The notes under the pieces are model-generated. The model saw only the letters and a program-made list of their open reading frames with translations. It had not been told where the DNA came from and did not search any database. A DNA stretch of 41,688 bases from a virus: the IMG/VR virus record IMGVR_UViG_3300042350_004008, positions 1 through 41,688 of that record; one strand, 5' to 3'. Made by a program: the position numbers and the translations under genes. Of the stretch, positions 163-24,019 are shown one piece after another. Within the stretch, counting starts at the first letter, position 1. Every line of letters starts with the position of its first letter.

Positions 163-179
163 AATGGAAGGGGATTGAG

Positions 180-815: not shown

Positions 816-831
816 AAGTGTCAGGGTGTGA

Positions 832-3005: not shown

Positions 3006-3026
3006 CGAACTTGCGCCGTTTGGTTT

Positions 3027-3254: not shown

Positions 3255-3323
3255 ACTAACTTACTCCTTTGCAAGACAGCCCCTAAGACTGTAGGGACCT
3301 AACAGAGGTAGCATATGCTACCC
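3255..3323 (-). promoter_or_regulatory. Leader with 16-bp perfect palindrome, copy 1
   Basis: Immediately after the terminator at 3324-3356 (minus strand) comes the perfect palindrome GGTAGCATATGCTACC (3307-3322), then a conserved tract with CTCTGTTAGGTCC, then the ribosome-binding site. A sister copy is at 3576-3642, with an identical palindrome and most of the tract conserved. Two conserved copies, each placed between a terminator and a gene, point to a promoter or an RNA-processing site. Confidence 0.6.
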
Positions 3324-3356
3324 ATAAAAAACACCCCCCGGATTTCTCCGGGGGAT
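3324..3356 (-). terminator. Intrinsic terminator after the 55-aa gene
   Basis: The arms CCCCCGGA (3335-3342) and TCCGGGGG (3347-3354) pair perfectly across a 4-base loop. On the minus strand they are followed by GTGTTTTTT, giving six Ts (complement of 3326-3331). This is a canonical rho-independent terminator. Confidence 0.82.
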
Positions 3357-3357
3357 G

Positions 3358-3403
3358 CTTCGGGCAAGCCATTAATCACATCTTACCCGAAGGCGGCTTG
3401 CCC
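3358..3403 (-). repeat. Overlapping nested inverted repeats in the 3' UTR
   Basis: Two inverted repeats overlap: CTTCGGG (3358-3364) with CCCGAAG (3386-3392), and GGGCAAGCC (3362-3370) with GGCTTGCCC (3395-3403). Their left arms share three bases, so the full stems cannot both form. They fill the gap between the 55-aa stop codon and its terminator. Alternative RNA folds affecting termination or mRNA stability are possible. Confidence 0.45.
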
Positions 3404-3407
3404 CTTG

Positions 3408-3575
3408 TTACGAAACAGGAACCGTAGTCAAACGCTGGGTCGTGACGGTCTGCCACGACATTCCCGCACACCCGACCGCGTCCACGGCTTCCTGTTCAGA
3501 ACGGTAAAAGACAGGGAGGTTGTTGTAGTACACAACAAACCAGCCGTGGGGAAGTGCGACAATGGTAATAACCAT
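3408..3575 (-). CDS. Small hypothetical protein, 55 aa
   Basis: I do not recognise this protein. The frame is open upstream to 3644, but the upstream part overlaps the palindrome and leader. The ATG at 3575 follows AGGAG at a normal distance, so it is taken as the start. The product begins with a hydrophobic beta-like stretch (MVITIVALPHGWFVVYYNN) and ends with a polar tail; there is no convincing membrane segment. The pattern VVYYNNLPVFYRSEQEA, a strand pair followed by a helix, resembles small phage proteins of unknown function. It is a single-gene unit with the conserved palindromic leader upstream (3576-3642) and nested hairpins plus a terminator downstream. Confidence 0.7.
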   Translation of the reverse strand: MVITIVALPHGWFVVYYNNLPVFYRSEQEAVDAVGCAGMSWQTVTTQRLTTVPVS

Positions 3576-3642
3576 TACATATCTCCTAACAAGTTTGGCC
3601 CTTGAGACTGCAAGGACCTGACAGAGGTAGCATATGCTACCC
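3576..3642 (-). promoter_or_regulatory. Leader with 16-bp perfect palindrome, copy 2
   Basis: The palindrome GGTAGCATATGCTACC (3626-3641) directly follows the stem-loop at 3643-3675. It is followed by CTCTGTCAGGTCC and a partly conserved tract, then AGGAG and the start at 3575. It matches the leader at 3255-3323 over more than 40 bases with a few differences, whereas the genes that the two leaders serve are unrelated. The shared part is therefore likely to be functional control DNA. Confidence 0.6.
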
Positions 3643-3675
3643 ATAAAGAAATCCCCCAGGGATTAACCTGGGGGA
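3643..3675 (-). terminator. Stem-loop terminator after the 88-aa gene
   Basis: The arms CCCCCAGG (3653-3660) and CCTGGGGG (3667-3674) pair across a 6-base loop. The minus-strand tail is ATTTCTTTATGGG, an interrupted U-tract. The same stem, loop and tail recur at 4026-4058, so this is a repeated module. Confidence 0.7.
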
Positions 3676-3684
3676 AGGGAGGGA

Positions 3685-3951
3685 TTACTCCGCCGTAGGA
3701 TCGTGGAGTGACGAGGCGTACAGCACTTCGTACGGCGACTTCAGCACCGTCAAGGTGACCGTGCTGTTATCCTCCGAACGAATGGCCGTGGCCATCAAGG
3801 TTCCGTTACCGTACAACTCCCAGCAATGGTCGCTGCATTCATATGTAGCGTCAAACAAGCGATGCAGGACCTTTGTAAAGTCTGTCTCTCGGACTGGAGT
3901 GGGATCCCACTCAAATCCGCGGAGGAACTTGTACTGGATGTTATCGTACAT
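3685..3951 (-). CDS. Small hypothetical protein, 88 aa, paralogue of the 80-aa protein
   Basis: I do not recognise the family, but this protein is clearly paralogous to the one at 4279-4521. Both carry an aromatic N-terminal segment, an LF(D/N)A patch, a WEL(Y/W) motif, and a closing RSED-x-x-TVTLTV-x-K strand, with a short gap in between. The paralogue has a C-terminal stop soon after this strand, whereas this copy adds about 15 residues. The start is placed at the ATG at 3951 because AGAAAG sits upstream in the same relative place as in the paralogue's leader; an ATG seven codons further upstream (3972) lies inside the conserved leader repeat. There is no membrane segment. It is a single-gene unit in the GC-rich arm. 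Confidence 0.75.
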   Translation of the reverse strand: MYDNIQYKFLRGFEWDPTPVRETDFTKVLHRLFDATYECSDHCWELYGNGTLMATAIRSEDNSTVTLTVLKSPYEVLYASSLHDPTAE

Positions 3952-3955
3952 GGCC

Positions 3956-4024
3956 AAATCTTTCTGGTCCATAGGACCTAGAGTTCACTGAACCCCAGTG
4001 ATAGGGATAGGTAGAAAGTCTACC
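3956..4024 (-). promoter_or_regulatory. 59-bp leader repeat, copy 1, with palindrome
   Basis: Positions 3956-4014 match 4527-4585 at all but three of 59 positions. On the minus strand the element starts next to the hairpin GGTAGA-AAG-TCTACC (4010-4024), includes CTATCCCTATCACTGGGG and AGGTCCTAT, and ends at the ribosome-binding site. The element follows a terminator and precedes a gene, so a promoter is the simplest reading. The hexamer AGGTCC is shared with the palindromic leaders at 3255-3323 and 3576-3642. Confidence 0.65.
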
Positions 4025-4025
4025 C

Positions 4026-4058
4026 ATAAAGAAATCCCCCAGGGATTAACCTGGGGGA
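4026..4058 (-). terminator. Stem-loop terminator after the 45-aa gene
   Basis: The arms CCCCCAGG (4036-4043) and CCTGGGGG (4050-4057) form the stem, with the same GATTAA loop and ATTTCTTTATGGG minus-strand tail as the module at 3643-3675. It starts six bases past the stop codon of the 45-aa gene. Confidence 0.7.
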
Positions 4059-4063
4059 CTTGG

Positions 4064-4201
4064 TCACCACGGGTTGCCAATAATGGCAAGGGGCTGATGA
4101 TCAGCGATCAACTTAGCCTTTGCTGCATCTTGACTATTTGCCGTGATGGTCACGGTAACTTCGTTACCATGACGATCCACAATCCTGAAGTTATACTTCA
4201 T
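4064..4201 (-). CDS. Small hypothetical protein, 45 aa
   Basis: This short gene has a strong ribosome-binding site (AAAGGAGATTCCAC before the ATG at 4201) and ends at TGA (4064-4066) just before a terminator. The product begins MKYNFRIVDRHGNEVTVTIT and continues with a helical ANSQDAAKAKLIADH segment. That is a beta hairpin followed by a helix, a layout seen in many small phage proteins of unknown function. The TVTIT strand resembles the TVTLTV strand of its two larger neighbours. Unlike those genes, its leader is only 27 bases long and consists of GGGTATATACCC plus the ribosome-binding site. Confidence 0.72.
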   Translation of the reverse strand: MKYNFRIVDRHGNEVTVTITANSQDAAKAKLIADHQPLAIIGNPW

Positions 4202-4217
4202 GTGGAATCTCCTTTCT

Positions 4218-4229
4218 GGGTATATACCC
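4218..4229. repeat. 12-bp perfect palindrome between terminator and 45-aa gene
   Basis: GGGTATATACCC lies directly after the terminator stem at 4240-4263 on the minus strand and directly before the ribosome-binding site of the 45-aa gene. It occupies the same position as the palindromes at 3307-3322, 3626-3641 and 4010-4024 but has a different core. No longer promoter-like tract is present here. Confidence 0.6.
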
Positions 4230-4263
4230 ATAAAGAAATCCCCCTAGGATTTCTCCTAGGGGG
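4229..4263 (-). terminator. Stem-loop terminator after the 80-aa gene
   Basis: A perfect 10-bp stem is formed by CCCCCTAGGA (4240-4249) and TCCTAGGGGG (4254-4263) with a 4-base loop, followed on the minus strand by ATTTCTTTATGGG. It lies 16 bases past the stop of the gene at 4279-4521. Confidence 0.72.
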
Positions 4264-4278
4264 AATGTGGTTCAGTAC

Positions 4279-4521
4279 TTAGCTGTTGTACTTAACAACT
4301 GTCAGAGTGACTGTAAGGTCGTCTTCGCTACGACACGCATAAGCGATACGCACACCATCACCACCGAGCTCATCGCGCTCCCACAGCTCCCAGTTGCGAT
4401 CCGGACGGAAGAATGCTGCGTTAAACAACCACAAAAAAGCTTCGTACTGACTCTCTGTATTGAGTGGGTGGTATTCCCGCTTCTGTCCGTGGATGTAAGA
4501 GTATCGGGTTTGATTTGCCAC
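4279..4521 (-). CDS. Small hypothetical protein, 80 aa, paralogue of the 88-aa protein
   Basis: This protein is paralogous to the one at 3685-3951 (shared LFNA/LFDA, WELW/WELY, and the RSED-x-x-TVTLTV-x-K ending). The start is a GTG at 4521: AGAAAGG lies eight bases upstream, at the end of a 59-bp leader repeat shared with the paralogue. The protein is rich in aromatic and charged residues and lacks signal or membrane segments. An extra GDG-containing insert separates the WELW motif from the final strands. It is the first gene after the strong terminator that closes the virion operon. Function is unknown; tandem duplication of both gene and leader implies selection for dose or diversification. 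Confidence 0.75.
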   Translation of the reverse strand: MANQTRYSYIHGQKREYHPLNTESQYEAFLWLFNAAFFRPDRNWELWERDELGGDGVRIAYACRSEDDLTVTLTVVKYNS

Positions 4522-4526
4522 AGTAC

Positions 4527-4595
4527 AAACCTTTCTGGTCTATAGGACCTAGAGTTCACTGAGCCCCAGTGATAGGGATAGGTAGGGAATCTACC
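4527..4595 (-). promoter_or_regulatory. 59-bp leader repeat, copy 2, with inverted repeat
   Basis: Positions 4527-4585 match 3956-4014 with three differences. The end next to the terminator carries GGTAG-N5-CTACC (4581-4595), a variant of the hairpin in copy 1. It lies between the strong terminator at 4600-4637 and the GTG start at 4521, the expected place for the first promoter of the GC-rich arm. Confidence 0.65.
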
Positions 4596-4599
4596 TGGG

Positions 4600-4637
4600 A
4601 AAAAAACAACCAGAGAATTATTAGTTCTCTGGTTGTA
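4600..4637 (-). terminator. Strong intrinsic terminator closing the virion operon
   Basis: On the minus strand the arms ACAACCAGAGAA and TTCTCTGGTTGT pair perfectly over 12 bp across a 7-base loop and are followed by a run of seven Ts. It lies about 90 bases past the stop of the 4055-aa gene. Unlike the GGGGG-type stems downstream, this stem is of mixed composition. It separates the AT-rich virion operon from the GC-rich arm. Confidence 0.92.
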
Positions 4638-4695
4638 GTGTAGGTGGTTGGGGGGTAAGGGGGGATTGCATCCCTCCACGTCGTACCATAGCCCC

Positions 4696-4709
4696 TCAGA
4701 AATTTCTGA
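4696..4709. repeat. 14-bp perfect palindrome at the composition boundary
   Basis: TCAGAAATTTCTGA is a perfect 14-bp palindrome flanked by CCCC on both sides of the plus strand. It sits 14 bases past the stop of the giant gene, close to where base composition changes. It could be an operator or a recombination or processing site; nothing in the sequence decides. Confidence 0.45.
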
Positions 4710-4722: not shown

Positions 4723-7700
4723 TTACCTCAGCGAGTCAGGAGCTTTAATAGGAGTTGTAGCTTGTTCTTCTAAGGAAGGTTCTTTTGTTTTCTTAGCAGG
4801 AGGCACTGGTTGTACTACTTGCTGTGTTACTTCGTTTGGAGGTAGAGTTACAATTGGATTGTTCTCTTTTATCTTAGGAAGTCTATTTAGATTTTCTATT
4901 TGTTTATTAATCATATCTGTGTAGTATGAACCAAACAATTCTTTTAGTTGTGCATCCAGTATATTATTCATTGTGCCTGGATTGCTGTAATCAAAGTAAT
5001 ATCCTACAGCACTTTCTATTGGTGATGCTACTGGTTTACCATTAGATAGTGTTGTTTTTGGTTTTGATGTTCTTTGAGAAATAGCATTATTAACTGGCTT
5101 GCTTTGGTTGATTGCTGTATTAACAATACTGCGAACCCCTGGTGTTAGGTACTGTAATCCACCCATCCAAACAGCTTCAGCTGCTTCTGTTCCTGAATCA
5201 GCATTTACAAGTTTATTTGTATTGATGGATAGAGACTTTAGCATTTGAGTAAAGGCAGTTAAACCAAGTGGACTTAGTAGGTTTAGTGGTTGTGCCTTTT
5301 CTCCAGCAACATTCTTTCCGATAAACTGAGCAACTTCCAAAATAGCATTACCACTAAGAGTAAACATGGGGTTTCTTGTTGCCATGTTTAAAATCATAAG
5401 CATTGTCTTTTTGGATGGTTGTCCCTTTAGTAATCGCTCTAGTTCATCACCAGACAAGAAACCGCTGGCAATGGCTAAGAATGTTTGATACATGATATCA
5501 AGCATGGTTTGTGTAACAAGTAATAGAACTGTCTTGTGCAAGCCAATTCTAGAACTGTTTCTTAGCATTACTTGTGAACCAAATAGAACACCATAAGATC
5601 TCCATAGAGAATACAGTTTGCTTAGTGGATGATCATCATTAATAGCATCCATTGCTGTTGAAGACACCATACCAAGTCTGATGTATTGGTCAATAAACTT
5701 ATCTATGGAACCAACGGCTCTAAATAACATATTTCTATCTAAAGATACAGATCCTACAGCAAGTCCCCAATCTACTGGTAAACTTAATACAGCTTGTGTT
5801 AGTTCTGATGTTGATAGTTTCTTAAGATTAAAGTTGTTTACTAAGAACTTAAGAGCTGCAATATTTCCTGTTTCAAAAATACCAGCGGCTTTCATTCTTG
5901 TAATAGCTTCAGCTGATGGTAGGTTTCTGACTCCCATTTCCTTTAGTCGTTCAACCAATTTGTAGTAACCATCTAGGTTACCTGTATCAAAAGACTCATC
6001 AACCAGAATAGTTTGTATCTCTTCTAGATTGTTTGTCAGCAGTTGATTGAATAACGTAGTAGTAGCCATTCTACCAGAAGCTGCTTTAGCTGCTACTGAT
6101 GTTGTCATATTGAGTGTTTGGAATATACTTAAAACTCTTTTTCCAAGATTCTTGGCTGTCTTTGAAGAATCAGTAGAGCCATATAGATCTCTCCAAGTGG
6201 CAACATAAGTATTGTTTGAGTCCCAAATAATTTCTGCAAAGTCTGCAAAGTCTCCCCGTAGTTGTGTAAATCTCCAAGCATCTGTTGCAGTCTTTAAACC
6301 CATGCTTGCCATAAATCTAAAGTAGTTACCATAATACTTTAAAACATCCCCAGACATTAATGGAGATGCCATAGCTGTACCTAATGCACCCATAGTAGAA
6401 TCAATTAGTAACCCAGCTGCAACCTGGTTTGTACCCCAGACTGTTTCTGCGGCTGTTCTAAAAATACCAATTGTTGGTTCTACCATACTGCTCTGTGAGT
6501 TATCAAGTGTTTGCTTAATATTCCACATATACATGTACTTATGCTTTAAAGCCTTTAGTGCATTCTTTAGTAGATTAACTTGTTTTTGTGTAAGCTGTAC
6601 TTGTCTTCTTTCACCTGTTGTTGGATCTACAGAGAACTGGTAATAGAAAGCTTGTCCGTTTGGTCTTTCTCCTTGAGTAACAATACTCTCTAGTATATTA
6701 ACTAGCTTCAAGAAATCCATACCACGGATTCCAGTAAGTTCATAGATCAATGATTGAGATACAGCTTGCTGACCTAAACCCTTCTCTAAACTAGAAATAA
6801 TAGATGAAAGATCTCTACTGAAACCAGCCCTAACTATTTCTTGTTCTGCGGGTGTTAATACAGAAGAAGTAAATACATCATTAATAGTTGGGTTAAGTCC
6901 ATCTTCATAAACAATAGCTGATGAATTACCCATAGTATTAATAAAGTCTTGAGCAAGGTAATCGGTTAAGCTTCTATTCTCCATATCTAGAATTGATTTT
7001 TCTGATTTGATTCTAATTGGAGAAAGTCTGCTATTCATAATTTGAATTTTAGAAGCATACCCAGGTTTACCAATGCCATCACTGCGTAATGCTTCAATAA
7101 TATTATTACGAATTGCATTAACATTATCTGCACTGATGTTGGAGTTATATCTCTGTAGTAACGATGTTAGTGTTGTGCCAGTAGCAGAAGCATTTCTAAG
7201 AAGTTCTTTATAACCCTGTAGTAAAACGCCAGCAGCTATTTTGCCTTCACCAGAAGTTAAGGAAGTAGCACTGAGTCTAGACTTTAGTGCTAGTATCTTA
7301 GATGCCATATCTGTACTGGTTCTATCCATACCAGCAGCGTAGTTTAAGATAACCTTAAACATAATACCTTCTAGTGAATTTTCATTTGTTGTTCCATTAA
7401 TGTTCTTTTCAATAAACGCTAAGAATGGTTGATTGTGATCTACTTTAGTTGATTCTAAAGTTGTAATTGCCGGTAAAGCATCAGACATAAAGAAAACAAC
7501 GGGATGAATAAAATCATTAGTAACTAATTCATTAGTAAGTTTATGTCTTATTACTTTCTTTAATGCATTCTTAAAGTTTCTTTGTCTTTGTTTTATTTCT
7601 GCTGTATTACCTTGGAACTGTTCTGCATCAAGTTTAAATGCTAAGAATGATGGGTTAAACGATCTTCTCGCATCCTTTAATCCTGACTCAGTAAATAGGA

Positions 7701-10700
7701 TATGCAATTGTTCTGCGGATTTCTTGTAAACCTTTGCAAAAGATTCGATTGCTTTCTTTTCTTCTTCAGAGAACTTATTGTCAATTGTTCCATTAACAAG
7801 GAAGTTAAAGGCTTCAACAACCATGCTATTGGCTTTATCTAGACCATTAACAACACTAGAGAATTCCTTGATAAGTTCATTTCTAGCTGTAGCTACTGCC
7901 CGTACAAACAACTTTGTTTTATACATGTTTTGCCTAATACCGTTTAATCCGGTATTGGTTTCAAAGTAAGCCTCTGTTGTTTGCGAGTCTGCATCAAGTA
8001 GATTAGCCAATGAAGCAATCATTCCGATTGGTGAGTTGTAAGTCAATTCACTTTGGTTTGATCCTAACCCAAAGAATATACTTGAAACAATATACTGCAT
8101 TTCTTGGATTCTTTCATTAACTCTAGCTGAGTCATCCTGCATAGAAGATCCAGTTAACAGTGTAGCAATTCGTCTTGCAAGGTAAGCAGCAGTACCTCGG
8201 CTATCTACACGCTTACCTCTGAAATCAGATAGCTTGCGTATAATGTGGTCTACAACAATTAGTTCTTCTTCTGGAGTTTCTGGCTGAGCAAACTCTACAC
8301 CAGGTAACCCAAGGCTTTGACCTCTTCTTCTAAGAGTTTCAAGAACACTGTAGTATTGGAAATCCTCAACACCAAGACTATCTTGTCGATTGATGTACAG
8401 ATCTCTAATGGCAACAAGTCTAGCTTGAATCCTTGCATACTCTTCGCTATTTACTTCTACTTCGTTTAATCGTTGAGTTAGTTCCGCATATTCACTCATT
8501 GTTTGGAACTCTTCTTCAGTCATTGGATGATATGTAGAAGCATCATAGATAATGTAGTTATCTAAATCAGTATCATTTAGATTGGTAAGTAGTTCTGTTT
8601 TTGGTTCAGCCGTTAGTTCAAAGAACTGTTCAAAAACCTTATTTAGTTTCTCTACAGGTCTGTTGTACTTAGGTGTTCTACTAATTTCATTAAAGAAGGT
8701 TGATACAGATTCTACAAAGTCTGCAATAGCACTGAATGTTCTCTTAAACCAACCAGTAATCTTTCTTGATTCTGAGTAATTATAAATACTCTTAAGAGCT
8801 TTGGGATTAGCTTTATCGCCAAGAACCTTTTGTGTTAGTAAGAATGAACCCCAGAAAACCAAAGCTTCTTCTGGATTATTTTCATAGTGTGATACCATTA
8901 AATCAATATCAGACTGTACTATAGATGAACCCTGGAATGCTTGTTGTACTAACAAGCCAATTACTTCTTTACCACGATCTGATCTTAGTGTTTCAATGGC
9001 TTCTTCGTAAGCAATTGGATTACGCTGCTTAGCAATCTCAACACTAATGTGAGATAGCTCATGGCTGAATGTTTCAACTATTTTTTCAATTGGTTGATTC
9101 TTTAAAACGCTAGCCGCTTTTTCTGGATTTTTCTTGAATATGATCTGAATCTGACCACCGACAATTCGCATCTTAGCCAATCTATTTAGATTAGTATCTA
9201 AACTAATTGTAATGTTTGAGGCAAGTTCTGGGTGTCTAGTTAGTATAAATCCCATGAATGATCTATACAGCTCTTCAGATACAGAATCCAAATCAAGTTG
9301 TTTAATCTGTGAATTAATTCTTTCACCTTCTCGTCCAAACCGAGTAACAAATGAAACTTCAGAAGCAAAGCTTTCTAATGTATCTTCTGCTTTTGCTTCA
9401 TATCCCGATAGGTCGAATAAACCCTTGACTTTGTGGTATTCTAAAGCTTCAGCAAATGCTACTCTTGCTTCTTCCTGTTTTGACATAGGAATACCTCTAG
9501 ATAACATAAAGTCTGCTAGGTAATTATTTGATGCCGTTTCAACAGCTTCGGTAGTTGCATCTAACCGTTGTAGATAACTCTTGGCTTCATAATACAAAGT
9601 ATTCTTTGGTGGATTTACAATAGTTAAATACTCTTGTTTAATCTCTAAAAGTTGATCGGTATAGATATCCAGTTTAGCAGTAGACATGTCTTCCCGTCTA
9701 AATACATTACTAATTAGTGCCTTTACTGTATTACGATCTACAGTTGGGTTTTCAATAACATACTTTAATACAGGCACAAGATCTCTGAATGCTGGATTAT
9801 TTTTTAGGAGTGTATTAAATTTCTTAAGTGATTTGCGTTGACCTCTTTGCTCTGCTTTATTAATGGCTCTCTTTAGTACCATTAGCAAACCCATTTCATA
9901 GGCTTTTAGTTGCACTGACTCTTTACCTAAAGATGGTATTAAAGCAATAGGTGTTTCAACTAAATACTTAATTGAATCTGTAATTGCGTAGTTAACTCCA
10001 TATCTAGAATCATATAAACCAGCATCAAGAGAATAGAATGGAACATTACTTTCTTTATGTAGCTCATCTAGAATAGTTGCTTCATCAGCTGCTAGATCTC
10101 TATTACCATTATAATATTCTAAAGTTTCTTTTAGCTTAGCTAACTCTAGTCTTGACTTTCTTTCACCAATGCTTCTATTTGTTTGGACTGCTAGTTCTGC
10201 TTGTTGGAATACAACAGAGTTACGCAAAGCAAGTAATAACTGATCAAGCATATCTGGAGTAAAAGCATACTTTGTATTACCATCTGTAACATATAGTTGA
10301 TTTTGATCTCCAAGTGCTGTATGTAGATTCTGACCTGGTTTAATCTTAGTATCAACAGTAGCAATTTCAAGTGTTGAAGAATTATTATAAGCTGTATAGT
10401 TTAAATAGAATCCGGCAGTAGATAGATCTACATTTTTAAATGTAGGATGCTGTCGAACATAGTTCATAACATCCATCATTCTACTTACAGGAATGCTTTC
10501 TGGAATTACAAACCCATCAGGCCCAGACTCAACATCACCAATAAATCCATTGTTTACAGCAAACTCAGTAATAACTGGCTTAATCTTTTCTAAGTTAAAG
10601 ATTAAGAAAATTAAGTTTACAGCATCATGTGCCTGTACAGTAATGGGTAATCTTCTAGTGTCTTTTGCATATGTTGTATCATCACCAGCAACTCTAGTTC

Positions 10701-13700
10701 TAGGTGAAACAACCAATCCAAACTCAAGAGGTTCAAGCTGTTTTGAGTTCTTGCTTATAACACGAAGAAGATCAAAATAAGACATAAACATCTTACCCCC
10801 AACCTTTCTTCCTTTTAACATACGAGGATTAAATCCACCGTAATATGAGAAGTCTAGTTGAGTAAGGGGCTTACCAGTTGTATTGTGTTGGAATTCAATA
10901 AGATCAAAAATAGATCCTAAGTATCCTGACATTGATGAGTTAAAGTCTTCTATGAACTTTATTGGGTTTGTATCATAAGAAGGAAGTTGTCTAAATTTTC
11001 TAGTAAGTCTATAGCTGGCTTTTCTATAAGATAAGAAAATATACTGTAGTGATGCCCAGTCTTCATTCCCAGGTTGAATGAGGTGTTCAAACCCATTGTC
11101 AACAGCAAACTTAGTCAACTTGCTTTGTAGTTTAGCTTTTTCAAATACTAGCTTGCTTTGTTCATCTATAGCCCCAGACAACAGAGAAATAGGTACTGGG
11201 ATTCTATTGATATATGGTAGCTTGTTTGGGTTAACTGTATGCCGCCAACCTAAAGCTTTTTCTGGGATAATATCAGCAATGCTTGTTGGCTTTTCTTTTC
11301 TCTTCTTAACTTCTTTTACCCAAGCTGCGTTTTGTCTATCTATTCTTGTCTTTAGGCTAAGTTCAGCAAGGCTATAAATAGGCAAGTCAGTAATATCAAA
11401 TCTAGCCATCTTTGGTCTAAAAGCAAATACACCCTTTAGTGTTGACTCTTCATTAAATGATTCAGATGGGTTGTTTACTGTATTGTTATATGACCCAAGG
11501 AATCTTTGAGATTGCTCAACCAACAATCCTCTTTTCTTTCTGGCTTCTAGTTCTTTTTTGGCAGCTTCAATTTTATTTCTTGCATCTTCAAAAGCCAATG
11601 TTCCTTCTGATGTGGTTAAATCTGGGAACCCAGCAAGTTCTTCTGCTGTTTGTCTGGCTAGGTCTTTAAGTTCCTTTTCTCTTCTCTTCTTTCGTTCAAG
11701 TGCAACTCTTTCAAGTTTTGAAGATTGTTTCCATGTTTCCATGAAAGAAGTAACTGTTTCAGAAGCTTTAGCATCATAGTCAGATGCCATATATTCGTTA
11801 GCAAGTCTTAACTCAAAGTTTTGTAATACTAGTTGTAGAATGTATCTTCTAGCTGCATCCTCTCCTTGAGAGTTAGCCAGATCAAGGAATCTATACTTAT
11901 CAATATCATACATTCCGCTTTCACTAACATCACCACTTTCCATAGCTCTAGGAGTCTGTACTTGAGAGTATTCAGGACCCTGGTAGCTAATAGGAGTAAA
12001 CTCGGTGTACAAACGACCACCAGCCAAATCTCTTGATACAGCTTGGAAGAAAGCGTAGTTACCTGTATTACCTAAGTATTCACTAACAGGTGTATCAAAT
12101 CTATTCCAAGCTTCATTTACTATCTGTTCTCGTAATTTAAGCGGGGTTCTATTTAATGCATTAATAGCAACCAGTACAGCATTTTCTTTATAAGCTTCTG
12201 GTTCCATGCCCATTAAAGTATAGAACTCCATCTTATCTTTTAGCGTTGCTAGCCGCCCACCTTTGCTTCTAATAAATGCTCTACCATCGTTAATTTTCTT
12301 TGCCCACTTTTCATATAGCCTTCTTTTATTTTCTCTGATTCTATCTTCTAGTGGTACGTTTAATTGTGTTTCATCAATTGGCTTAGTTAACATTCTAGCA
12401 GCAATATCTATGCGTGTTCTAATTAGCTCATTGACATTATCTAGATCAATAATACCAGCAGCAAAATTAGGATTAGACGTGGCTAGTGCTTTAAGGGTTT
12501 CATGGAATCTATGCTTTCCATCTTTATCCATATACAGTTGATTATACCACGAAGCTAATCTATTTTTTAGATCATTTCGTAAAGGAGTATCAATACCAAT
12601 TGTACTATCAATTAAACTAATTAATCCAGTAACACCAGACAAGTTAGCTTTTTCTAATAGGAAGTTAATATCCCCATTAGTAATATCCTGACCGATTTCT
12701 AAATCTTTTAGTTTATCAAAGATAGCTTGACCAATGGATGGGTTACCACCTTCGTATAGCCTTGGTAGTACAGCTACTTTAAAGAAGGCTCTAAGGTCTG
12801 TAATATGGGTTGAAAGTAGGTTATTCCATTTTGTTAGTGATCTAAGTTCTTGTTCTTCATTAGCATCTAGTTTTCTACCAGAGGCTGTTATAGCTTCTTT
12901 CTTTGCACTTAACTTTTCAAACCTAGCTTTAACACTATCAAATGTTTTTTCTGCTACTTGATTATAAAAGTCAGAGTCTGCTTTGCTATCAGAAGTTGAT
13001 TTAAACCAAGCATCGTATTGTAGCTTTTCTAAAAGTTTAGCTGGTGCTTGCTTTGATGTTCCTGCTTCATAGGCTAAAGCTAACATTAACATGTGGTGAA
13101 CACCGTTAAAGTCAAAGTCAAAGTAATCAATTTTGCGTCTAGCAAGTTTACCTTCTTGTTCTAACTTAACGGTATTTTCAATGGATGTATCAATTGCTTG
13201 GCTAGTTAAACCATAAGTTTGATACCAAGCTAATTGCGCTAATAGCTGTCCATTAATTAAAGCCGCAGCAGACCAAGCACCAGGTGATGCTCTATTTTCC
13301 TTAAACTTTAGTGGCTTATCTGAGTTTATATCTGTAACAATTTCTGTTTCAAAGAAGAAGGAGTCATGTACAACAGCTGCTCCAACTACAGGAAGATCTA
13401 GTAAAGCCTCTAAAGTTCTTTCTATTGTCTCATCCATTGTTGGTAGTTGATTAAACAACCGTCTATTATTAATACTAGGAGTAACTTGAGGAATAATAGA
13501 TGTAACAGATCTAGATAAAACCTCTACTCTAGACGCATACTCGCCAACCGATAGCTGTCTTAATCGTTCTCTAATCTGGTCTTCAGTAAGCCCTGCATAC
13601 CGATCTGGATTTAAGATATGCTCAACTCTTTGCTTTAATCTCCAGTCATTATATGTTTCTTCTAGTTGTCTAATAGAAATAGGAGAAAACATAGATATGC

Positions 13701-16700
13701 TATCTCTAGTAGGTATTTGATACTTTAGGGATTCTGTAACCTGATCTGCTTTTTCTCGTATTTCAGCTACTACAGATGTTGGAGTATTTCCTCTTTCAAG
13801 ATCATCTATTACAAGTTTATTTATAGATCCATCTTTTCTACCAAGTACTAACTGAGCAATTGCATAGCCAACATTAAAGGCTGGTGAGTAGTCTACAGAT
13901 CCATCACCAAAGTTAGCAATAGATGTTGCACCTACTCTTGGAAGAATGTATTCGTTAATAAAGGATGTTACATAACTATTAAAAGACTCATTTGCATTAA
14001 TTTCTCTAAATTCATTATTAGTGAATTCTTGAATCTTTTGAATAGCCTTTGTTTCCATAGTTTTTTCACTTTGGAAATCACCTTTGATATCTAAGAAGAA
14101 AGCCTTAAAAGCATTAATTACTTCTGTTTCATACTCTAGGCTAGTATCTAAATAGGTTGGAACACCCTCTGAGATGTTTAAAATAAATCTAGGTGTTTCA
14201 GATCCATCATTCATTATATCTACTTTAGCTTTTACACCCGCTTCTTTTTGTCTTCGTAAGAACTTTACTCTATTAACCAATACTTCTAGTTCTTGTTTGG
14301 TTGCTCTCTTTGAAGCTTCTGTTATAGCTTCAGCTAGGTTAGTAGTATCAGCGTCTGCTTGTAAAGCTAGTACTAAAGCTAGAGTAAGTTGCTGTTCTAC
14401 CTTATTTGTATTAAACTTAACACTTGATGTTTCTGCCTGACCTCGACTAAATCCAGACAGTGTTGTTGTGGCGGTTCTTATTAAACCAGGATTATTAAAT
14501 CCAGAGAACAATGCAGAGAAATTAAATCCATTGTTTCCATGCTGTCCACTTAAAATCCAAGTTTGAACTGGTGAGTTTAAGGTTATAGCAGCAGATGTTT
14601 TACCTTCACTTCTAACATCGACATTTAAAGTAGTGCCTTCTTTAGCTCTAATTTCTCCAATAATGTCAATTACTAATTGAGCATCACCCCTAGCATAGAT
14701 ATTTAAATTATCAAGTTCAGCTTGTGTAGTTGCATTTAAAAGTTGTTCTACTACATTAGTACCAGTTACTTTAGTTGTTTCTCCAGTTCGTAGGGTTCCT
14801 TTACCACGACCTAATACAGCTTGAGATAGGTTATTTAGGTTTAGTTTTGTATTCTGAGTAACTTCTATTGATGTCATTAAATCAAAAGATCTAAGGGCTA
14901 TTCTACCTAGTTTTAAAGAATAGTCTAAATCAATTTCATCTAGATATTCAGATAGCCAAACAAAGTCTGCGCCTAGTAGATTAAAACCAACAACCTTCCA
15001 ACCTTGGTTTTGCATGGCTTCTAATACATCAATTATTTCTTTTACATCATCTTTAGTAAACTCTTTAAAGCTACCAATAGTACCTCTGGTTGATTGCTCT
15101 GCTAGTTTCTGTAGTCTTGGATCAATGTTCGGTACTTGGCTATGTTCAATTGTAGCCATATAGATTTTACCGGTTTTACGATCAATCTCTAGGTCAAATG
15201 AAATTAGTTTAGACCAATCTCCATTAAACTCATCTTTAAAATCTGGAAGAGCATCAAGTGTTTCTCTGTCAAAGTTTAAAATATCAAAGGCACTTACTAG
15301 TGGTTCTGGTAATGTTTCTGATGGATTGGTAACAGATGTATCCCTTGTAATGGTTCTTTCTTCTTGAATAGCATCCGCAAAGAAAATATTTGGATTAATA
15401 CCACCAATATTATTTCCAAACAAAGCTCTAACAACATCTGCTGAAATAACTTCAGAAAACTGTGGCAAAGCTTTAAGTCTTTCTAGTCTTTCTAAAGCAG
15501 CCTTAAGTTGTATAAACAAATCTTTAAAAGAAGTTTTTTCAATAAACTCTTTTGCTCTTTGTTCTCTAGAGTTTAGGTTATCTAACGATACTTCTTGATT
15601 GCTGGCTTCTCTATCAAAAACCGTATTATTGTCTACATCGTCAATATTAAGACCAGATCCCATTTTAGATTTGGCTAATTCTTCTTCAAGCTTTAGTTCT
15701 TCTTGAGAACTTAACTCTAGAATAGACTTACCATTTGATAATGCCTGGTCTAATCCTAGTCTTTGAATCTTTGTAAATATCTTTCCAATCTCTAAATCCG
15801 TTAGTTTAGTACTACCAGTAAGATATTTTAGTCGTTTTTTTGATAGTGACTTGTTAATTATATTCTGAAGATCTGGTGTAATATCCCCCAAAACAGCAAG
15901 AAGGGTGGCATAGTTTACTTCGCCCTTAGCTTCTTTTCTGATTAGATTTAAAAGATCTTTAAGTGTTTTTATTACTTCAATATTTTGTTTTGCTATTAAG
16001 AACGCAGCTCTAGATGTATCTTTAATATCGGTTGTATTTAAAATATCTTGTATACTGTTAACAAGGAAAGTACTCTGAGCTTCTTGGTCCGCTTGTAAAG
16101 ACTTTAGTTCTTCAAGTAAACTTAATGAAAAATCTGAAGTATCCTTTTTTAGTTTTCTGATTAACTTAGATCCAAACAACTCTTTTGTTTTATTTTTTAT
16201 TTTTTCTGTTAGTTCTTTAATGTCTTCTTTAAGTGCTTGTTTTTCACCAACATCTGTAATAGCTTTTAGTCTACCAATGAGTTTAAATTTTTCCTCTTTT
16301 AGCTTTAAAAGATCTGGATCATTTAAGATTTCAACTTCAGGTAGTAATCTCAAAGCTTCAAAAATTGCTCCCATCTTAGCTCTTTGAGATCTTACACCAG
16401 TACGTCTTATATACTTACCGATGTTTTTATTGTTTGTTTCAGCTCTTTCTACTCTCTTTAAGAGGTTAGTAACAAACTCCAATTCCTTGGTTTTATTGTC
16501 TCTACGGAACTTTTCTTTAAGTTTCTTTAACTGTTCTTTTAATTCAGTCCTTTCAGAAAACTTAAGCTTCTGTGCTGGAACAAGTTTATTATCCCTGTTA
16601 GCCTGTAGTTTTCCCACTAGTAAAAAGAAAGTTTCAATATCAGAATCTGCAATAGCGTCTATATTCTTAGCTCTTCTAAATTTAGTTACTAGTTCACCAA

Positions 16701-16890
16701 GCTTTTTTTGGTCATCTGCTGTAAATAAGGTTTCACTTAGGAAGTCTGTAACAGCTTTGACTGACTCTTCATTCTCAATAGTCTTTTGAAATGCTTTTAC
16801 CTGAGCATCAATTTGGTCAGCTGTTAATTTAGTTGTTTCAGAAAGATACTTTCTGATTTGGTTTAAAACCTCAATACTGCAAATTGGCAT
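4723..16890 (-). CDS. Giant multidomain virion protein, 4055 aa: exonuclease, RNA-polymerase-like palm, HExxH
   Basis: Last gene of the ejected-protein block, in the place of T7 gene 16 but three times longer. Residues 1-450 are mostly charged helix. Residues about 560-765 look like a DEDDy 3'-5' exonuclease: D566-L-E568, N637-x4-D642, Y732-xxx-D736. Residues 1141-1385 carry polymerase-like motifs: NNR-R1144-LF, H1175-D1176-S-F, D1258-xxxx-G1263-V-H-H, DFYNQVAEK near 1309, and R1367-xxx-K1371-x7-Y1379. H2610-E-L-S-H2614 is a zinc-metallopeptidase motif. A hydrophobic stretch lies near 3785-3812, and the C-terminus is Pro/Lys-rich. The start follows AAGGAG. Large phage proteins that enter the cell with DNA (N4 virion RNA polymerase, polyvalent proteins) are the closest known concept. 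That it is a virion protein is inferred from its place. No lytic transglycosylase motif was seen. The gene is certain; domain calls are moderate. Confidence 0.85.
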   Translation of the reverse strand: MPICSIEVLNQIRKYLSETTKLTADQIDAQVKAFQKTIENEESVKAVTDFLSETLFTADDQKKLGELVTKFRRAKNIDAIADSDIETFFLLVGKLQANRDNKLVPAQKLKFSERTELKEQLKKLKEKFRRDNKTKELEFVTNLLKRVERAETNNKNIGKYIRRTGVRSQRAKMGAIFEALRLLPEVEILNDPDLLKLKEEKFKLIGRLKAITDVGEKQALKEDIKELTEKIKNKTKELFGSKLIRKLKKDTSDFSLSLLEELKSLQADQEAQSTFLVNSIQDILNTTDIKDTSRAAFLIAKQNIEVIKTLKDLLNLIRKEAKGEVNYATLLAVLGDITPDLQNIINKSLSKKRLKYLTGSTKLTDLEIGKIFTKIQRLGLDQALSNGKSILELSSQEELKLEEELAKSKMGSGLNIDDVDNNTVFDREASNQEVSLDNLNSREQRAKEFIEKTSFKDLFIQLKAALERLERLKALPQFSEVISADVVRALFGNNIGGINPNIFFADAIQEERTITRDTSVTNPSETLPEPLVSAFDILNFDRETLDALPDFKDEFNGDWSKLISFDLEIDRKTGKIYMATIEHSQVPNIDPRLQKLAEQSTRGTIGSFKEFTKDDVKEIIDVLEAMQNQGWKVVGFNLLGADFVWLSEYLDEIDLDYSLKLGRIALRSFDLMTSIEVTQNTKLNLNNLSQAVLGRGKGTLRTGETTKVTGTNVVEQLLNATTQAELDNLNIYARGDAQLVIDIIGEIRAKEGTTLNVDVRSEGKTSAAITLNSPVQTWILSGQHGNNGFNFSALFSGFNNPGLIRTATTTLSGFSRGQAETSSVKFNTNKVEQQLTLALVLALQADADTTNLAEAITEASKRATKQELEVLVNRVKFLRRQKEAGVKAKVDIMNDGSETPRFILNISEGVPTYLDTSLEYETEVINAFKAFFLDIKGDFQSEKTMETKAIQKIQEFTNNEFREINANESFNSYVTSFINEYILPRVGATSIANFGDGSVDYSPAFNVGYAIAQLVLGRKDGSINKLVIDDLERGNTPTSVVAEIREKADQVTESLKYQIPTRDSISMFSPISIRQLEETYNDWRLKQRVEHILNPDRYAGLTEDQIRERLRQLSVGEYASRVEVLSRSVTSIIPQVTPSINNRRLFNQLPTMDETIERTLEALLDLPVVGAAVVHDSFFFETEIVTDINSDKPLKFKENRASPGAWSAAALINGQLLAQLAWYQTYGLTSQAIDTSIENTVKLEQEGKLARRKIDYFDFDFNGVHHMLMLALAYEAGTSKQAPAKLLEKLQYDAWFKSTSDSKADSDFYNQVAEKTFDSVKARFEKLSAKKEAITASGRKLDANEEQELRSLTKWNNLLSTHITDLRAFFKVAVLPRLYEGGNPSIGQAIFDKLKDLEIGQDITNGDINFLLEKANLSGVTGLISLIDSTIGIDTPLRNDLKNRLASWYNQLYMDKDGKHRFHETLKALATSNPNFAAGIIDLDNVNELIRTRIDIAARMLTKPIDETQLNVPLEDRIRENKRRLYEKWAKKINDGRAFIRSKGGRLATLKDKMEFYTLMGMEPEAYKENAVLVAINALNRTPLKLREQIVNEAWNRFDTPVSEYLGNTGNYAFFQAVSRDLAGGRLYTEFTPISYQGPEYSQVQTPRAMESGDVSESGMYDIDKYRFLDLANSQGEDAARRYILQLVLQNFELRLANEYMASDYDAKASETVTSFMETWKQSSKLERVALERKKRREKELKDLARQTAEELAGFPDLTTSEGTLAFEDARNKIEAAKKELEARKKRGLLVEQSQRFLGSYNNTVNNPSESFNEESTLKGVFAFRPKMARFDITDLPIYSLAELSLKTRIDRQNAAWVKEVKKRKEKPTSIADIIPEKALGWRHTVNPNKLPYINRIPVPISLLSGAIDEQSKLVFEKAKLQSKLTKFAVDNGFEHLIQPGNEDWASLQYIFLSYRKASYRLTRKFRQLPSYDTNPIKFIEDFNSSMSGYLGSIFDLIEFQHNTTGKPLTQLDFSYYGGFNPRMLKGRKVGGKMFMSYFDLLRVISKNSKQLEPLEFGLVVSPRTRVAGDDTTYAKDTRRLPITVQAHDAVNLIFLIFNLEKIKPVITEFAVNNGFIGDVESGPDGFVIPESIPVSRMMDVMNYVRQHPTFKNVDLSTAGFYLNYTAYNNSSTLEIATVDTKIKPGQNLHTALGDQNQLYVTDGNTKYAFTPDMLDQLLLALRNSVVFQQAELAVQTNRSIGERKSRLELAKLKETLEYYNGNRDLAADEATILDELHKESNVPFYSLDAGLYDSRYGVNYAITDSIKYLVETPIALIPSLGKESVQLKAYEMGLLMVLKRAINKAEQRGQRKSLKKFNTLLKNNPAFRDLVPVLKYVIENPTVDRNTVKALISNVFRREDMSTAKLDIYTDQLLEIKQEYLTIVNPPKNTLYYEAKSYLQRLDATTEAVETASNNYLADFMLSRGIPMSKQEEARVAFAEALEYHKVKGLFDLSGYEAKAEDTLESFASEVSFVTRFGREGERINSQIKQLDLDSVSEELYRSFMGFILTRHPELASNITISLDTNLNRLAKMRIVGGQIQIIFKKNPEKAASVLKNQPIEKIVETFSHELSHISVEIAKQRNPIAYEEAIETLRSDRGKEVIGLLVQQAFQGSSIVQSDIDLMVSHYENNPEEALVFWGSFLLTQKVLGDKANPKALKSIYNYSESRKITGWFKRTFSAIADFVESVSTFFNEISRTPKYNRPVEKLNKVFEQFFELTAEPKTELLTNLNDTDLDNYIIYDASTYHPMTEEEFQTMSEYAELTQRLNEVEVNSEEYARIQARLVAIRDLYINRQDSLGVEDFQYYSVLETLRRRGQSLGLPGVEFAQPETPEEELIVVDHIIRKLSDFRGKRVDSRGTAAYLARRIATLLTGSSMQDDSARVNERIQEMQYIVSSIFFGLGSNQSELTYNSPIGMIASLANLLDADSQTTEAYFETNTGLNGIRQNMYKTKLFVRAVATARNELIKEFSSVVNGLDKANSMVVEAFNFLVNGTIDNKFSEEEKKAIESFAKVYKKSAEQLHILFTESGLKDARRSFNPSFLAFKLDAEQFQGNTAEIKQRQRNFKNALKKVIRHKLTNELVTNDFIHPVVFFMSDALPAITTLESTKVDHNQPFLAFIEKNINGTTNENSLEGIMFKVILNYAAGMDRTSTDMASKILALKSRLSATSLTSGEGKIAAGVLLQGYKELLRNASATGTTLTSLLQRYNSNISADNVNAIRNNIIEALRSDGIGKPGYASKIQIMNSRLSPIRIKSEKSILDMENRSLTDYLAQDFINTMGNSSAIVYEDGLNPTINDVFTSSVLTPAEQEIVRAGFSRDLSSIISSLEKGLGQQAVSQSLIYELTGIRGMDFLKLVNILESIVTQGERPNGQAFYYQFSVDPTTGERRQVQLTQKQVNLLKNALKALKHKYMYMWNIKQTLDNSQSSMVEPTIGIFRTAAETVWGTNQVAAGLLIDSTMGALGTAMASPLMSGDVLKYYGNYFRFMASMGLKTATDAWRFTQLRGDFADFAEIIWDSNNTYVATWRDLYGSTDSSKTAKNLGKRVLSIFQTLNMTTSVAAKAASGRMATTTLFNQLLTNNLEEIQTILVDESFDTGNLDGYYKLVERLKEMGVRNLPSAEAITRMKAAGIFETGNIAALKFLVNNFNLKKLSTSELTQAVLSLPVDWGLAVGSVSLDRNMLFRAVGSIDKFIDQYIRLGMVSSTAMDAINDDHPLSKLYSLWRSYGVLFGSQVMLRNSSRIGLHKTVLLLVTQTMLDIMYQTFLAIASGFLSGDELERLLKGQPSKKTMLMILNMATRNPMFTLSGNAILEVAQFIGKNVAGEKAQPLNLLSPLGLTAFTQMLKSLSINTNKLVNADSGTEAAEAVWMGGLQYLTPGVRSIVNTAINQSKPVNNAISQRTSKPKTTLSNGKPVASPIESAVGYYFDYSNPGTMNNILDAQLKELFGSYYTDMINKQIENLNRLPKIKENNPIVTLPPNEVTQQVVQPVPPAKKTKEPSLEEQATTPIKAPDSLR
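9049..9063 (-). other. HExxH zinc-metallopeptidase motif in the giant protein
   Basis: Residues 2610-2614 read HELSH within the context VETFSHELSHISVEIA, a helix typical of zincins. The glutamate at 2618 could be a third ligand, but its spacing does not clearly fit one named zincin group. Such motifs are common in large phage virion and polyvalent proteins, where self-processing or cleavage of host proteins has been proposed. Confidence 0.55.
12736..13470 (-). other. RNA-polymerase-like palm region of the giant protein (residues about 1141-1385)
   Basis: Motif A-like D1258-F-D-F-N-G1263-V-H-H parallels T7 D537-GSCS-G542-I-Q-H. The next helix, DFYNQVAEK, parallels T7 DIYGIVAKK. Motif B R1367-xxx-K1371-x7-Y1379 has the exact family spacing, and the A to B distance of 109 is close to that of T7 (90). 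A possible T/DxxGR equivalent, R1144, lies 114 residues before D1258 (112 in T7). The best motif C candidate, VVHDSFFFE, lies at 1175-1176, before motif A. A second H-D (2088-2089) is some 700 residues after motif B. Confidence 0.5.
14596..15213 (-). other. DEDDy 3'-5' exonuclease-like domain of the giant protein (residues about 560-765)
   Basis: All three exonuclease motifs are present in order: SFDLEID (D566, E568), GFNLLGADFVWL (N637, D642) and YARGDAQLV (Y732, D736). The Tyr four residues before the last Asp marks the DEDDy subtype found in proofreading exonucleases of DNA polymerases and in RNase D-type enzymes. Spacing is normal for a 170-200 residue domain. Confidence 0.7.
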
Positions 16891-16900
16891 TTATATCTCC

Positions 16901-19546
16901 TTACTTACAAGCGTCTTTAAATTTAGAAAGAATGTCATTGAATACGGATACTTCCTCTACTGTACCAAAGTCATTTAGAACAGCAATAGGACTATCTAGT
17001 TTTGGTTTATCAACAACAGGAGCAGCCTCTGGTTCGGTTTCTGGAGCAGCTTTTGGAGCAGCCTCAGTAGCCTCTGGAGCAGCCTCAGCAGCCTCTGGAG
17101 CAGCCTCTGGAGCAGCCTCAGCAGCCTCTGGAGCAGCCTTACTAGCGCGTTCTTCTGCTACCATTTTATCAAAATCTGCTTCGGCCTTGTCAATATCAAA
17201 CTTTGTTGCGGTTTCCTCTGCTACCATTTTATCAAAATCTGCTTCGGCCTTGTCAATATCAAAAGCTGCTTCGGCCTTGTCGATATCTATATCCGTGGTT
17301 GAAGGTAGTGATTCGGTTTCAGCAATTCTTTCTGCTAAGTCAATATTTACACCATCGGCTAATCCAGAATCGTCTATTACCGCTTCTCCAATTGCATCTA
17401 CAATTTCTGCTCTACTTTCTTCTGATATACCAGATAATCCTTCTTTTAGTTCTTCATCTGTTACAACATCTGAACTAGTATTTCTAGACTCAACCAATGG
17501 TAGATCGGCTAATAAAGTTTTAGTTCTTTCGGTTATTTTTGTTTTGTATTCTTGAAACTTTTCAAGATTTACCGCGCTATTAATTGCTTCTTCAACTACT
17601 TGTTCACTAGCTTCTGGATCAATATTTAATACATCAGTTAAGAAACTTTCTCTTAGAATCTTTTCCCACAAAACTTCAAACTGCGGTTTAACATCAATAC
17701 CCCTAGAATAAAGTGCTGATAATAAATGATTAGCAACATAGATATCGTAGTCTAAATCAGTTAAAGTATTATCTGTTTTTTTCTTTTCATCGAACTTTTT
17801 TCTAGCTTCTTCAATAACACCAACAGTATATTCTGGAGATAATGACTTAACCCCTAATCCCCAAAGAGCAGCACTAAGTGTTGGGAATGTTTTTGTATCT
17901 TTACTTAGTAACTTAATCTTCATTAACGAAGAAAAAGCCAAAACAGAATCTAAATGCTGCTGGGCTTCTAACCCGGTCATATCATCCCAGGCTTGATCTG
18001 GATTTAACAACCTAGCGGATAAAGCCAAAGAATCTTTTACACTAGAGGGAAGGGTATCTATAACTGATTTTGCAAGCTTACCTGCTTTTTCGTGTGTAAG
18101 TTCATTTACTTTAGATACAATAAAACTACCACTCCTACCAACAGCTCCAATACCACCACCTAAACCTAGTTCACCTACAATTTCCATAACAATATCATGT
18201 CCTAGGTTTTCTGCACTAAACTGATAATCTGATTCCGAGTTTAATCTATTTACTTGGTTAGCTACATTATACAAAGCACCAGTTACAACCCCAGTAGCAA
18301 CGCTTGATGCAGTAAAGTATCCTAGTTTAGATGCAGTAGAAGCACCAGGTGTAAATAAATACTTAGCTGGAATGTTGTGAGGCAGCCAAGACATTGTTTT
18401 ATTACTCCATCGCTGTGTATGCATAGCAAGAGTAGCAGCAGCTTTGGCTGTTTTATACGCCCTAGATCCAACAGGGGCCATACGCATGGCTATAAAAGCA
18501 CCAGTAGCTGTACCACCAGATAGTACCGTCAATCCCGCTGTAGCAGCCATATCAAAGGGAGCGTCCGCAGAAGCAAAAGAATCTCTAACAAGTGGTATTA
18601 AAGTGGTATTAAGAGTTTTACTTATATCCCCCATATACTTTAGATCAACTTCAGCTGTTCTTCTTAAATTTACCTGATCAATATGATCACCAATTCGCTC
18701 AAAGAAATTAAAATCATCTCTAGTAGATCTTAGTGTATCTGGATTAAACCCACTTTGGAGTAACCAAGAAGAAATTTCTGGGTGATAGTCTGAATATAAC
18801 TCCCAAGCTTTTTGAGGATTCCAGTTTTTAGCAACTGGTGCAGACTCAGCTACATCTAATGGGTCTTTACCAAAGTAGTTTTCATATAGATTAAGAGCAG
18901 CCGTTACTCCCCAAGTTGTGGGATTCCATCCATACTGTGACCAGTTAGCAAAAGCCCCATCTTTACCATACTGAGCAAAACTTTCTAGTTCTTTTTCTGC
19001 TTGTTTTCTTTCTTCTGGCGTAAGGAATATATGTTTATCTCGTACTTGATCAAAGAATCCTTCAGAAACTAACCCTTTAGCTAACATTCTATTTGCAACT
19101 GCGGATTGGCTGTGTCTTTCTGGAGCCAGAATACCCTTAAGACTATCCCTATTTCTTCCAGATACATACAATGCTTCGTCAAAAGCTTGTTGTCCCCATT
19201 CATACCTACCTGTATAAGTATTTAAGAAAGGACCACCTTGAAAGTTATTATATCCTCTTCTTTTTATTTCGTCTTCTGTAGCTAGTAACCTTAGATCAGA
19301 AGCTTCTTCAAACTTTTCTTGTGCTTTTTTACTTTCATCAAAAATTCTTGATCTTTGCTCTTTTTCTTTTTCCTTAGCAGTTGAAATTTCATCAAATATT
19401 TCTTGCTCTACAAAAGGTAAAATTGATAAACCATTTAAATACTTTTGTCTTATCTCTTCATCTTTTCTAATTGGGTTTCCATTTTCATCTTGACCGACTG
19501 AAGGAAATAATAAACTAGCATAATCTATACCAGGGTTAATTGCCAT
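16901..19546 (-). CDS. Probable internal virion protein, 881 aa, with Ala/Glu repeat tail
   Basis: I do not recognise a named family. The gene lies between the gp15-like 1490-aa gene and the giant gene, so it most likely encodes another internal or ejected protein. The start at 19546 follows GGAGGTGAAGA, and its ATG overlaps the previous stop (TAATG). The N-terminal third is charged helix and the middle contains two hydrophobic Gly/Ala stretches (about 332-356 and 408-428), which could insert into a membrane during ejection. From about residue 770 a low-complexity tail contains two copies of a 21-residue unit (FDIDKAEADFDKMVAEE) and then AAPEA-type repeats. Such a tail may act as a flexible linker. 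The gene is certain; the role comes from position only. Confidence 0.75.
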   Translation of the reverse strand: MAINPGIDYASLLFPSVGQDENGNPIRKDEEIRQKYLNGLSILPFVEQEIFDEISTAKEKEKEQRSRIFDESKKAQEKFEEASDLRLLATEDEIKRRGYNNFQGGPFLNTYTGRYEWGQQAFDEALYVSGRNRDSLKGILAPERHSQSAVANRMLAKGLVSEGFFDQVRDKHIFLTPEERKQAEKELESFAQYGKDGAFANWSQYGWNPTTWGVTAALNLYENYFGKDPLDVAESAPVAKNWNPQKAWELYSDYHPEISSWLLQSGFNPDTLRSTRDDFNFFERIGDHIDQVNLRRTAEVDLKYMGDISKTLNTTLIPLVRDSFASADAPFDMAATAGLTVLSGGTATGAFIAMRMAPVGSRAYKTAKAAATLAMHTQRWSNKTMSWLPHNIPAKYLFTPGASTASKLGYFTASSVATGVVTGALYNVANQVNRLNSESDYQFSAENLGHDIVMEIVGELGLGGGIGAVGRSGSFIVSKVNELTHEKAGKLAKSVIDTLPSSVKDSLALSARLLNPDQAWDDMTGLEAQQHLDSVLAFSSLMKIKLLSKDTKTFPTLSAALWGLGVKSLSPEYTVGVIEEARKKFDEKKKTDNTLTDLDYDIYVANHLLSALYSRGIDVKPQFEVLWEKILRESFLTDVLNIDPEASEQVVEEAINSAVNLEKFQEYKTKITERTKTLLADLPLVESRNTSSDVVTDEELKEGLSGISEESRAEIVDAIGEAVIDDSGLADGVNIDLAERIAETESLPSTTDIDIDKAEAAFDIDKAEADFDKMVAEETATKFDIDKAEADFDKMVAEERASKAAPEAAEAAPEAAPEAAEAAPEATEAAPKAAPETEPEAAPVVDKPKLDSPIAVLNDFGTVEEVSVFNDILSKFKDACK
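17040..17300 (-). repeat. Coding tandem repeats (63-bp unit and AAPEA repeats)
   Basis: A 47-bp identical block occurs at 17154-17200 and 17217-17263, a 63-bp period equal to 21 codons, with a third partial copy ending near 17287. Next to it, 17047-17140 is an imperfect array of GCAGCCTCTGGA/GCAGCCTCAGCA units encoding AAPEA-type peptides. The array is GC-rich inside an AT-rich gene and is likely to vary in copy number between relatives. Confidence 0.8.
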
Positions 19547-24018: not shown

Positions 24019-24019
24019 A

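Follow-up and report, generated by a model that had tools for sequence, protein, structure and literature searches.

An HExxH domain downstream of the polymerase has been described in the virion RNA polymerase (vRNAP) of phage N4 (PMC12633501), and an HExxH domain is also found in polyvalent proteins, for which self-processing has been proposed (PMC5512222). N4 RNAPII, which is formed of gp15 and gp16, is an example of a thumb/DxxGR part that can exist apart from motifs A, B and C (PMC4496689), while the RNA-dependent RNA polymerases (RdRps) of birnaviruses and permutotetraviruses have a palm in the order C-A-B (PMC3724706, PMC4666646). We found no permuted single-subunit RNA polymerase (ssRNAP) in the literature searched. 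A preliminary description of the locus examined here had noted an exonuclease, a polymerase-like region and a metallopeptidase motif in one 4055 amino acid (aa) chain of a T7-type podovirus, and had regarded this combination as unfamiliar. This holds for the exonuclease and the T7-type genome, but an RNA polymerase (RNAP) and an HExxH domain in one ejected chain are known from N4-type vRNAPs (PMC12633501, PMC5512222), and what is new in this giant protein is therefore its exonuclease, its T7-type host genome and, above all, its motif order of C-A-B-GR.

The window, by which we mean the whole stretch of DNA analysed, is the 41,688-nt IMG/VR record IMGVR_UViG_3300042350_004008. As had been proposed, it belongs to a T7-type phage, with T7-like genes for the nozzle, tail tube, scaffold, gp10-like capsid, tail-fibre N-terminus and terminase large subunit. 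To the right of the capsid genes are proteins of 672 aa (38917–40935) and 460 aa (37525–38907), for which we detected no Pfam family or significant PHROG match. All genes and motifs located below are on the minus strand. The nozzle (tail tubular protein B; 31076–33880) matched PF25675 with an E-value of 3.7e-74 and the gp10-like major capsid protein (34791–36119) matched phrog_267 with an E-value of 1.5e-22, while the T7-type terminase large subunit (24739–26400) has many relatives, T7-type phages among them, all <60% identical and the best ~37%. Past the terminase the gene order is a 243-aa gp14-like protein, a 1495-aa protein, an 881-aa protein, the giant and a 624-aa protein. The last of these (832–2706) is a second ssRNAP of canonical order (D288-x4-G293, R340/K344/Y352, H564-D565), and its family aligned with the T7 RNAP family in hhalign with an E-value of 1.2e-22. 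This divergent gene recurs behind the giant in most relatives, besides a T7-like RNAP of ~812 aa elsewhere, and the phage group has two ordinary ssRNAPs of about 812 and about 624 aa. G+C content is 52–57% at positions 1–4700, compared with 32–45% in the rest of the window, and besides the 624-aa gene this part holds short ORFs only; a chimera was rejected as the reading of the higher G+C, since the 624-aa ORF also comes behind the giant in relatives. The contigs of the relatives are 62–70 kb and contain a canonical ~812-aa T7-like RNAP, DNA polymerase A, a primase-helicase, a ribonucleotide reductase-like gene and a portal, all absent from the window, with the canonical RNAP and the T7 nozzle both present in 9/9 relatives' records of >60 kb.

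The ORF of the giant (4723–16890) is open throughout its 4055 aa, as previously reported without mention of the strand; it starts with ATG at 16890 and is preceded by a ribosome-binding site, AAGGAG (16897–16902). One direct search yielded two homologues with ~43% identity, after which we searched records sharing the canonical RNAP and ran three alignment-guided scans. This gave a family of about 25 homologues of 4.0–5.2 kaa, from uncultured T7-type phages and mostly 17–27% identical to the window protein in the polymerase region. A motif match in L010 was rejected as a chance antisense match within a tail gene. No homologues were detected by tblastn among 50,697 phage isolate records, nor relatives in a scan of bacterial and archaeal genomes that used two short patterns only, and the window giant itself had no informative match in Pfam, PHROGs, PDB sequences or the 50,697 phage records. 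Across homologues that are ~20–25% identical, about 100 residues are invariant over the whole chain, including D566, E568, D642, Y732 and D736 as well as D1258, G1263, K1371 and Y1379. The motifs named in the preliminary description all sit at the residues it gave (D566/E568, N637/D642, Y732/D736, D1258...G1263, DFYNQVAEK at 1307, R1367/K1371/Y1379 and HELSH at 2610) and are conserved in homologues beyond chance, although N637 and R1367 are not invariant and the HELSH site is EExxH in one clade. The C-terminal tail, ATTPIKAPDSLR (4726–4761), is present in most complete giants, where it recurs as ATxPIxAPxxL despite ~20% overall identity, and is a possible docking or packaging signal.

The DEDDy 3'-5' exonuclease domain (residues 555–760; 14611–15228) is supported by its conserved catalytic residues, with D566, E568, D642 and Y732 invariant and D736 at least 90% conserved in 15 sequences. 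Pfam RNase_H_2 matched 11/15 members (best E-value 9.9e-9) and DNA_pol_B_exo2 matched 8/15, with no match of either family to the window giant's own copy. In the 5.1–5.2 kaa giants L083 and L099, and probably L082 too, the exonuclease lies C-terminal of the polymerase at residues ~3310–3560. The offset from polymerase to exonuclease in L083 and L099 is ~800–1000 residues towards the C-terminus, and the domain is therefore a movable module with no fixed Klenow-like neighbour.

The proposal of an RNA-polymerase-like enzyme also found support, and invariant columns, profile blocks and a fingers match all speak for its being ssRNAP-like; of its motifs the A-helix-B set had been recognised, but motif C (VHDS) and the GR block (~1626) had been missed. 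In 26 sequences only 9/731 columns of the polymerase region (residues ~985–1715) are invariant, namely G995, R1088, D1176, D1258, G1263, D1307, K1371, Y1379 and R1626. Unsupervised hhalign paired D1176, D1258, G1263, D1307, K1371, Y1379 and R1626 with T7 D812, D537, G542, D569, K631, Y639 and R425, respectively, and the same seven residues also pair with the corresponding N4 residues in a profile alignment. Motif C, VHDSFF (residues 1172–1180; 13351–13377), has VHDS (1174–1177) at its core and lies N-terminal of motif A, with D1176 invariant and H1175 at least 90% conserved in the 26 sequences. Motif A, D1258-x4-G1263-x-H1265 (residues 1255–1270; 13081–13128), is followed by D1307-F-Y1309 (12964–12972), which pairs with T7 D569-I-Y571, and by motif B, R1367-x3-K1371-x7-Y1379 (residues 1364–1383; 12742–12801), which pairs with T7 R627/K631/Y639. 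The thumb/xxGR block (residues 1566–1645; 11956–12195) comes last, and its R1626, which also pairs with N4 R1421, is invariant and the G usual, while the D/T of DxxGR/TxxGR is not conserved at its canonical spacing. The order was C-A-B-GR in every aligned member, whereas T7 and N4 have GR-A-B-C. A two-barrel (DxDxD) RNAP reading of the sequence FDFDFNG was rejected, as D1258 alone is conserved and D1260 is not.

Combined hhalign alignments with six artificial block orders did not tell these orders apart, and we therefore used single blocks and judged their scores against 100 column shuffles. Each ssRNAP profile block matched its own giant segment only, with motif C at 1156–1186, A-B at 1257–1400 and thumb/GR at 1558–1640. 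Scores for the ssRNAP blocks were 39.4 for GR, 35.5 for A-B and 22.9 for motif C, compared with shuffle maxima of 20.1, 17.0 and 14.7, respectively. Likewise, the N4 GR and A-B blocks scored 35.1 and 35.0 (shuffle maxima 24.8 and 18.7), while the N4 motif C block alone was not significant against the giant (11/100 shuffles). The window giant had no RNAP match in Pfam, including RNA_pol, or in PHROGs. Together, the invariant columns and profile blocks strongly support the central enzyme of the giant being a rearranged relative of the ssRNAPs.

We consider it unlikely that this fold is an inert relic, in which case the giant would be mainly a structural ejection or channel protein comparable to T7 gp16, or else a polyvalent protein for counter-defence. 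Its low cysteine content and the position of its gene behind gp14/15-like genes would fit such a role, and a third RNAP is less obviously necessary because the phage group already has two complete ssRNAPs elsewhere, but at ~20% identity the few invariant columns are the catalytic ones, and these are what decay would hit first.

AlphaFold (AF2) with only three sequences gave a pLDDT of 37 and was of no use, while the model of the polymerase region had a pLDDT of 62 and a pTM of 0.48, with confident finger helices. Using VIA-align, ranks 1–14 were all ssRNAPs with Z scores of 7.7–10.4, values that mostly helical models may also reach by chance. The fingers region matched T7 556–720 and the mitochondrial RNAP fingers (Z 10.4), and the best match begins at D1307, equivalent to T7 D569, in agreement with the sequence pairing. 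Foldseek of the model against the PDB and viral models returned nothing significant, and palm strands had a pLDDT <50. The fold comparison of residues 1100–1700, suggested earlier as a check, recovered ssRNAP fingers but not the palm itself, and thus did not refute the polymerase reading. Given the Z scores that chance may reach, the Foldseek outcome and the low palm pLDDT, that the rearranged motifs close an active site is something we can only infer.

In the Klenow layout a DEDDy exonuclease is followed by the palm, and both a motif B of RxxxK-x7-Y and the HD of motif C are common to Pol A and ssRNAP enzymes. The giant could thus be read as a virion DNA polymerase of Pol A type, with DEDDy proofreading, a Pol A palm and VHDS as a VHDE-like motif C; Klenow 1kfs was among the insignificant Foldseek matches, as was mitochondrial RNAP 7a8p. 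This appears very improbable to us. A motif A of D-x4-G-x-H and a separate xxGR block are RNAP features, the VIA-align Z scores of DNA pol gamma (4.5) and Pol theta (3.9) are below the range quoted above for ssRNAPs, the exonuclease of L083 and L099 lies far to the C-terminal side of the polymerase, and one relative has a T7-like DNA polymerase of its own (PF00476, E-value 2.3e-48). We hold an equally low opinion of a simply permuted ssRNAP of order A-B-C-GR, in which only the thumb/GR module would have moved and motif C would lie near D1428 (LIDSTIGI): the motif C profile has its second-best score (16.3) in segment 1401–1555 and D1428 is retained in most close relatives, but the profile scores 22.3 at 1146–1250, and a number of members have E, N or Q in place of D1428, which disfavours this site against the invariant D1176 with its H1175.

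C-terminal of the rearranged C-A-B-GR core, the giant contains a HELSH zincin-like helix (residues 2605–2618, with H2610, E2611 and H2614; 9037–9078), and the sequence NPEE (8866–8877) provides a candidate third ligand, E2675, which is near-invariant in 16 sequences. The helix block scored 28.4 with a shuffle maximum of 17.4, over 17 columns only. HExxH is likewise C-terminal of the polymerase in 11/11 N4-type vRNAPs examined. Within the giant family the site is HExxH in several clades, and with EExxH in one other, peptidase activity is no family-wide certainty.

The giant is the last gene in a gp14-15-16-like block. The 243-aa gp14-like internal virion protein (24020–24751) was recognised by weak matches (T7_gp14, E-value 0.27; phrog_805, E-value 0.0074), while the 1495-aa protein (19546–24033) and the 881-aa protein directly upstream of the giant (16901–19546) are gp15-like and gp16-like by position. 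With the TTG start used, the 1495-aa protein has no cysteine, and this protein, the 881-aa protein and the giant have just two in their combined 6431 aa, compared with zero in N4-type vRNAPs. These are Cys4 (16879–16881), the sole cysteine of the giant, and Cys880 (16907–16909), the sole cysteine of the 881-aa protein. In relatives with split genes the cysteine of the giant falls within residues 3–6 and that of the upstream product in the last 1–7 residues, where it is nearly always the only one. The giants of L083 and L099 carry part of the upstream protein family fused into their N-terminus (E-values 4e-16 and 1e-8, respectively) and have zero cysteines. A terminal cysteine pair that is present in split genes and absent where the genes are fused suggests a disulfide between Cys4 and Cys880 that tethers the N-terminus of the giant to the C-terminus of the 881-aa protein, and which would be superfluous in L083 and L099, where both form one chain. 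The position of the gene at the end of the block and the single cysteine of the giant support ejection, and the giant is probably a virion protein that leaves with the DNA.

On balance, we think it fairly likely that the giant is an ejection protein of a T7-type podovirus of ~65–70 kb, with an ssRNAP core rearranged to C-A-B-GR and an N4-like mechanism. Motif C would have moved to a place ahead of motif A, and the thumb/xxGR module to one behind motif B, which is plausible because the thumb/DxxGR part of N4 RNAPII is separable from A-B-C. The giant would enter the virion alongside the gp14/15/16-like proteins and exit via the tail with the DNA, probably disulfide-tied through its N-terminal Cys4 to Cys880 at the C-terminus of the 881-aa protein. 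Once inside the cell, its polymerase would transcribe the first phage genes, including that of the ordinary T7-like RNAP, as in N4, while the DEDDy domain may trim 3' ends of nucleic acid and the HExxH domain, in clades that keep it, may cut the long chain apart. We infer the enzyme activities, promoter use, virion location, ejection and disulfide from the patterns above, and a mode of action like that of the N4 virion RNAP by analogy.

A wider proposition seems to us evenly balanced, namely that T7-type phages have a family of injected ssRNAPs with a permuted C-A-B-GR core, possibly the first permuted-palm DNA-dependent RNAPs, together with a disulfide link between the giant and the upstream ejection protein in place of the peptide bond that sister phages retain through their gene fusion. 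If true, a permuted DNA-dependent RNAP would mean that the ssRNAP core can withstand rearrangement, and would allow a test of how such polymerases evolve and get packaged. The giant also joins the life styles of T7 and N4, as a T7-type virion apparently delivers its own RNAP, nuclease and peptidase, and the terminal cysteine pair, lost on fusion, provides a directly testable model for how ejection proteins are linked up to pass through a narrow tail.

Compared with known systems, phage polyvalent proteins resemble the giant in that a single delivered chain combines several enzyme domains with an HExxH peptidase (PMC5512222); for its DEDDy domain, the term 'DEDD' is absent from the text of that paper as searched and 'exonuclease' is mentioned once. 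Birnavirus and permutotetravirus RdRps, compared by motif order only, share the position of motif C before A and B, but are RNA-templated and have no GR block. N4 RNAPII has two subunits and the canonical order, whereas the giant is one chain with motif C first and the thumb/GR module last; a chain of gp15 length matched the giant model weakly (VIA-align Z 5.4–5.6). T7 and mitochondrial RNAPs share motifs A, B, C and GR and the fingers fold, but differ in motif order, and in the giant these are part of a giant chain. N4-type vRNAPs (Schitoviridae gp50) share a size of ~3–4 kaa, a near or complete lack of cysteine, a gene beside virion-protein genes, and an ssRNAP core with an HExxH domain and a large C-terminal part behind it (PMC12633501, PMC5512222), with no homology to the N4-like C-terminal region detected in the giant, and both phages are podoviruses of ~70 kb. 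Their order is GR-A-B-C where the giant has C-A-B-GR, and at their ExDGxxxG signature (PMC10654107) the motif A region of the giant reads FDFDFNG, so on these two tests we do not file it as an N4-type vRNAP; it also has the extra DEDDy exonuclease and T7-type structural genes. The N4-type vRNAP is the nearest known thing to the giant, without the giant being a member of that group.
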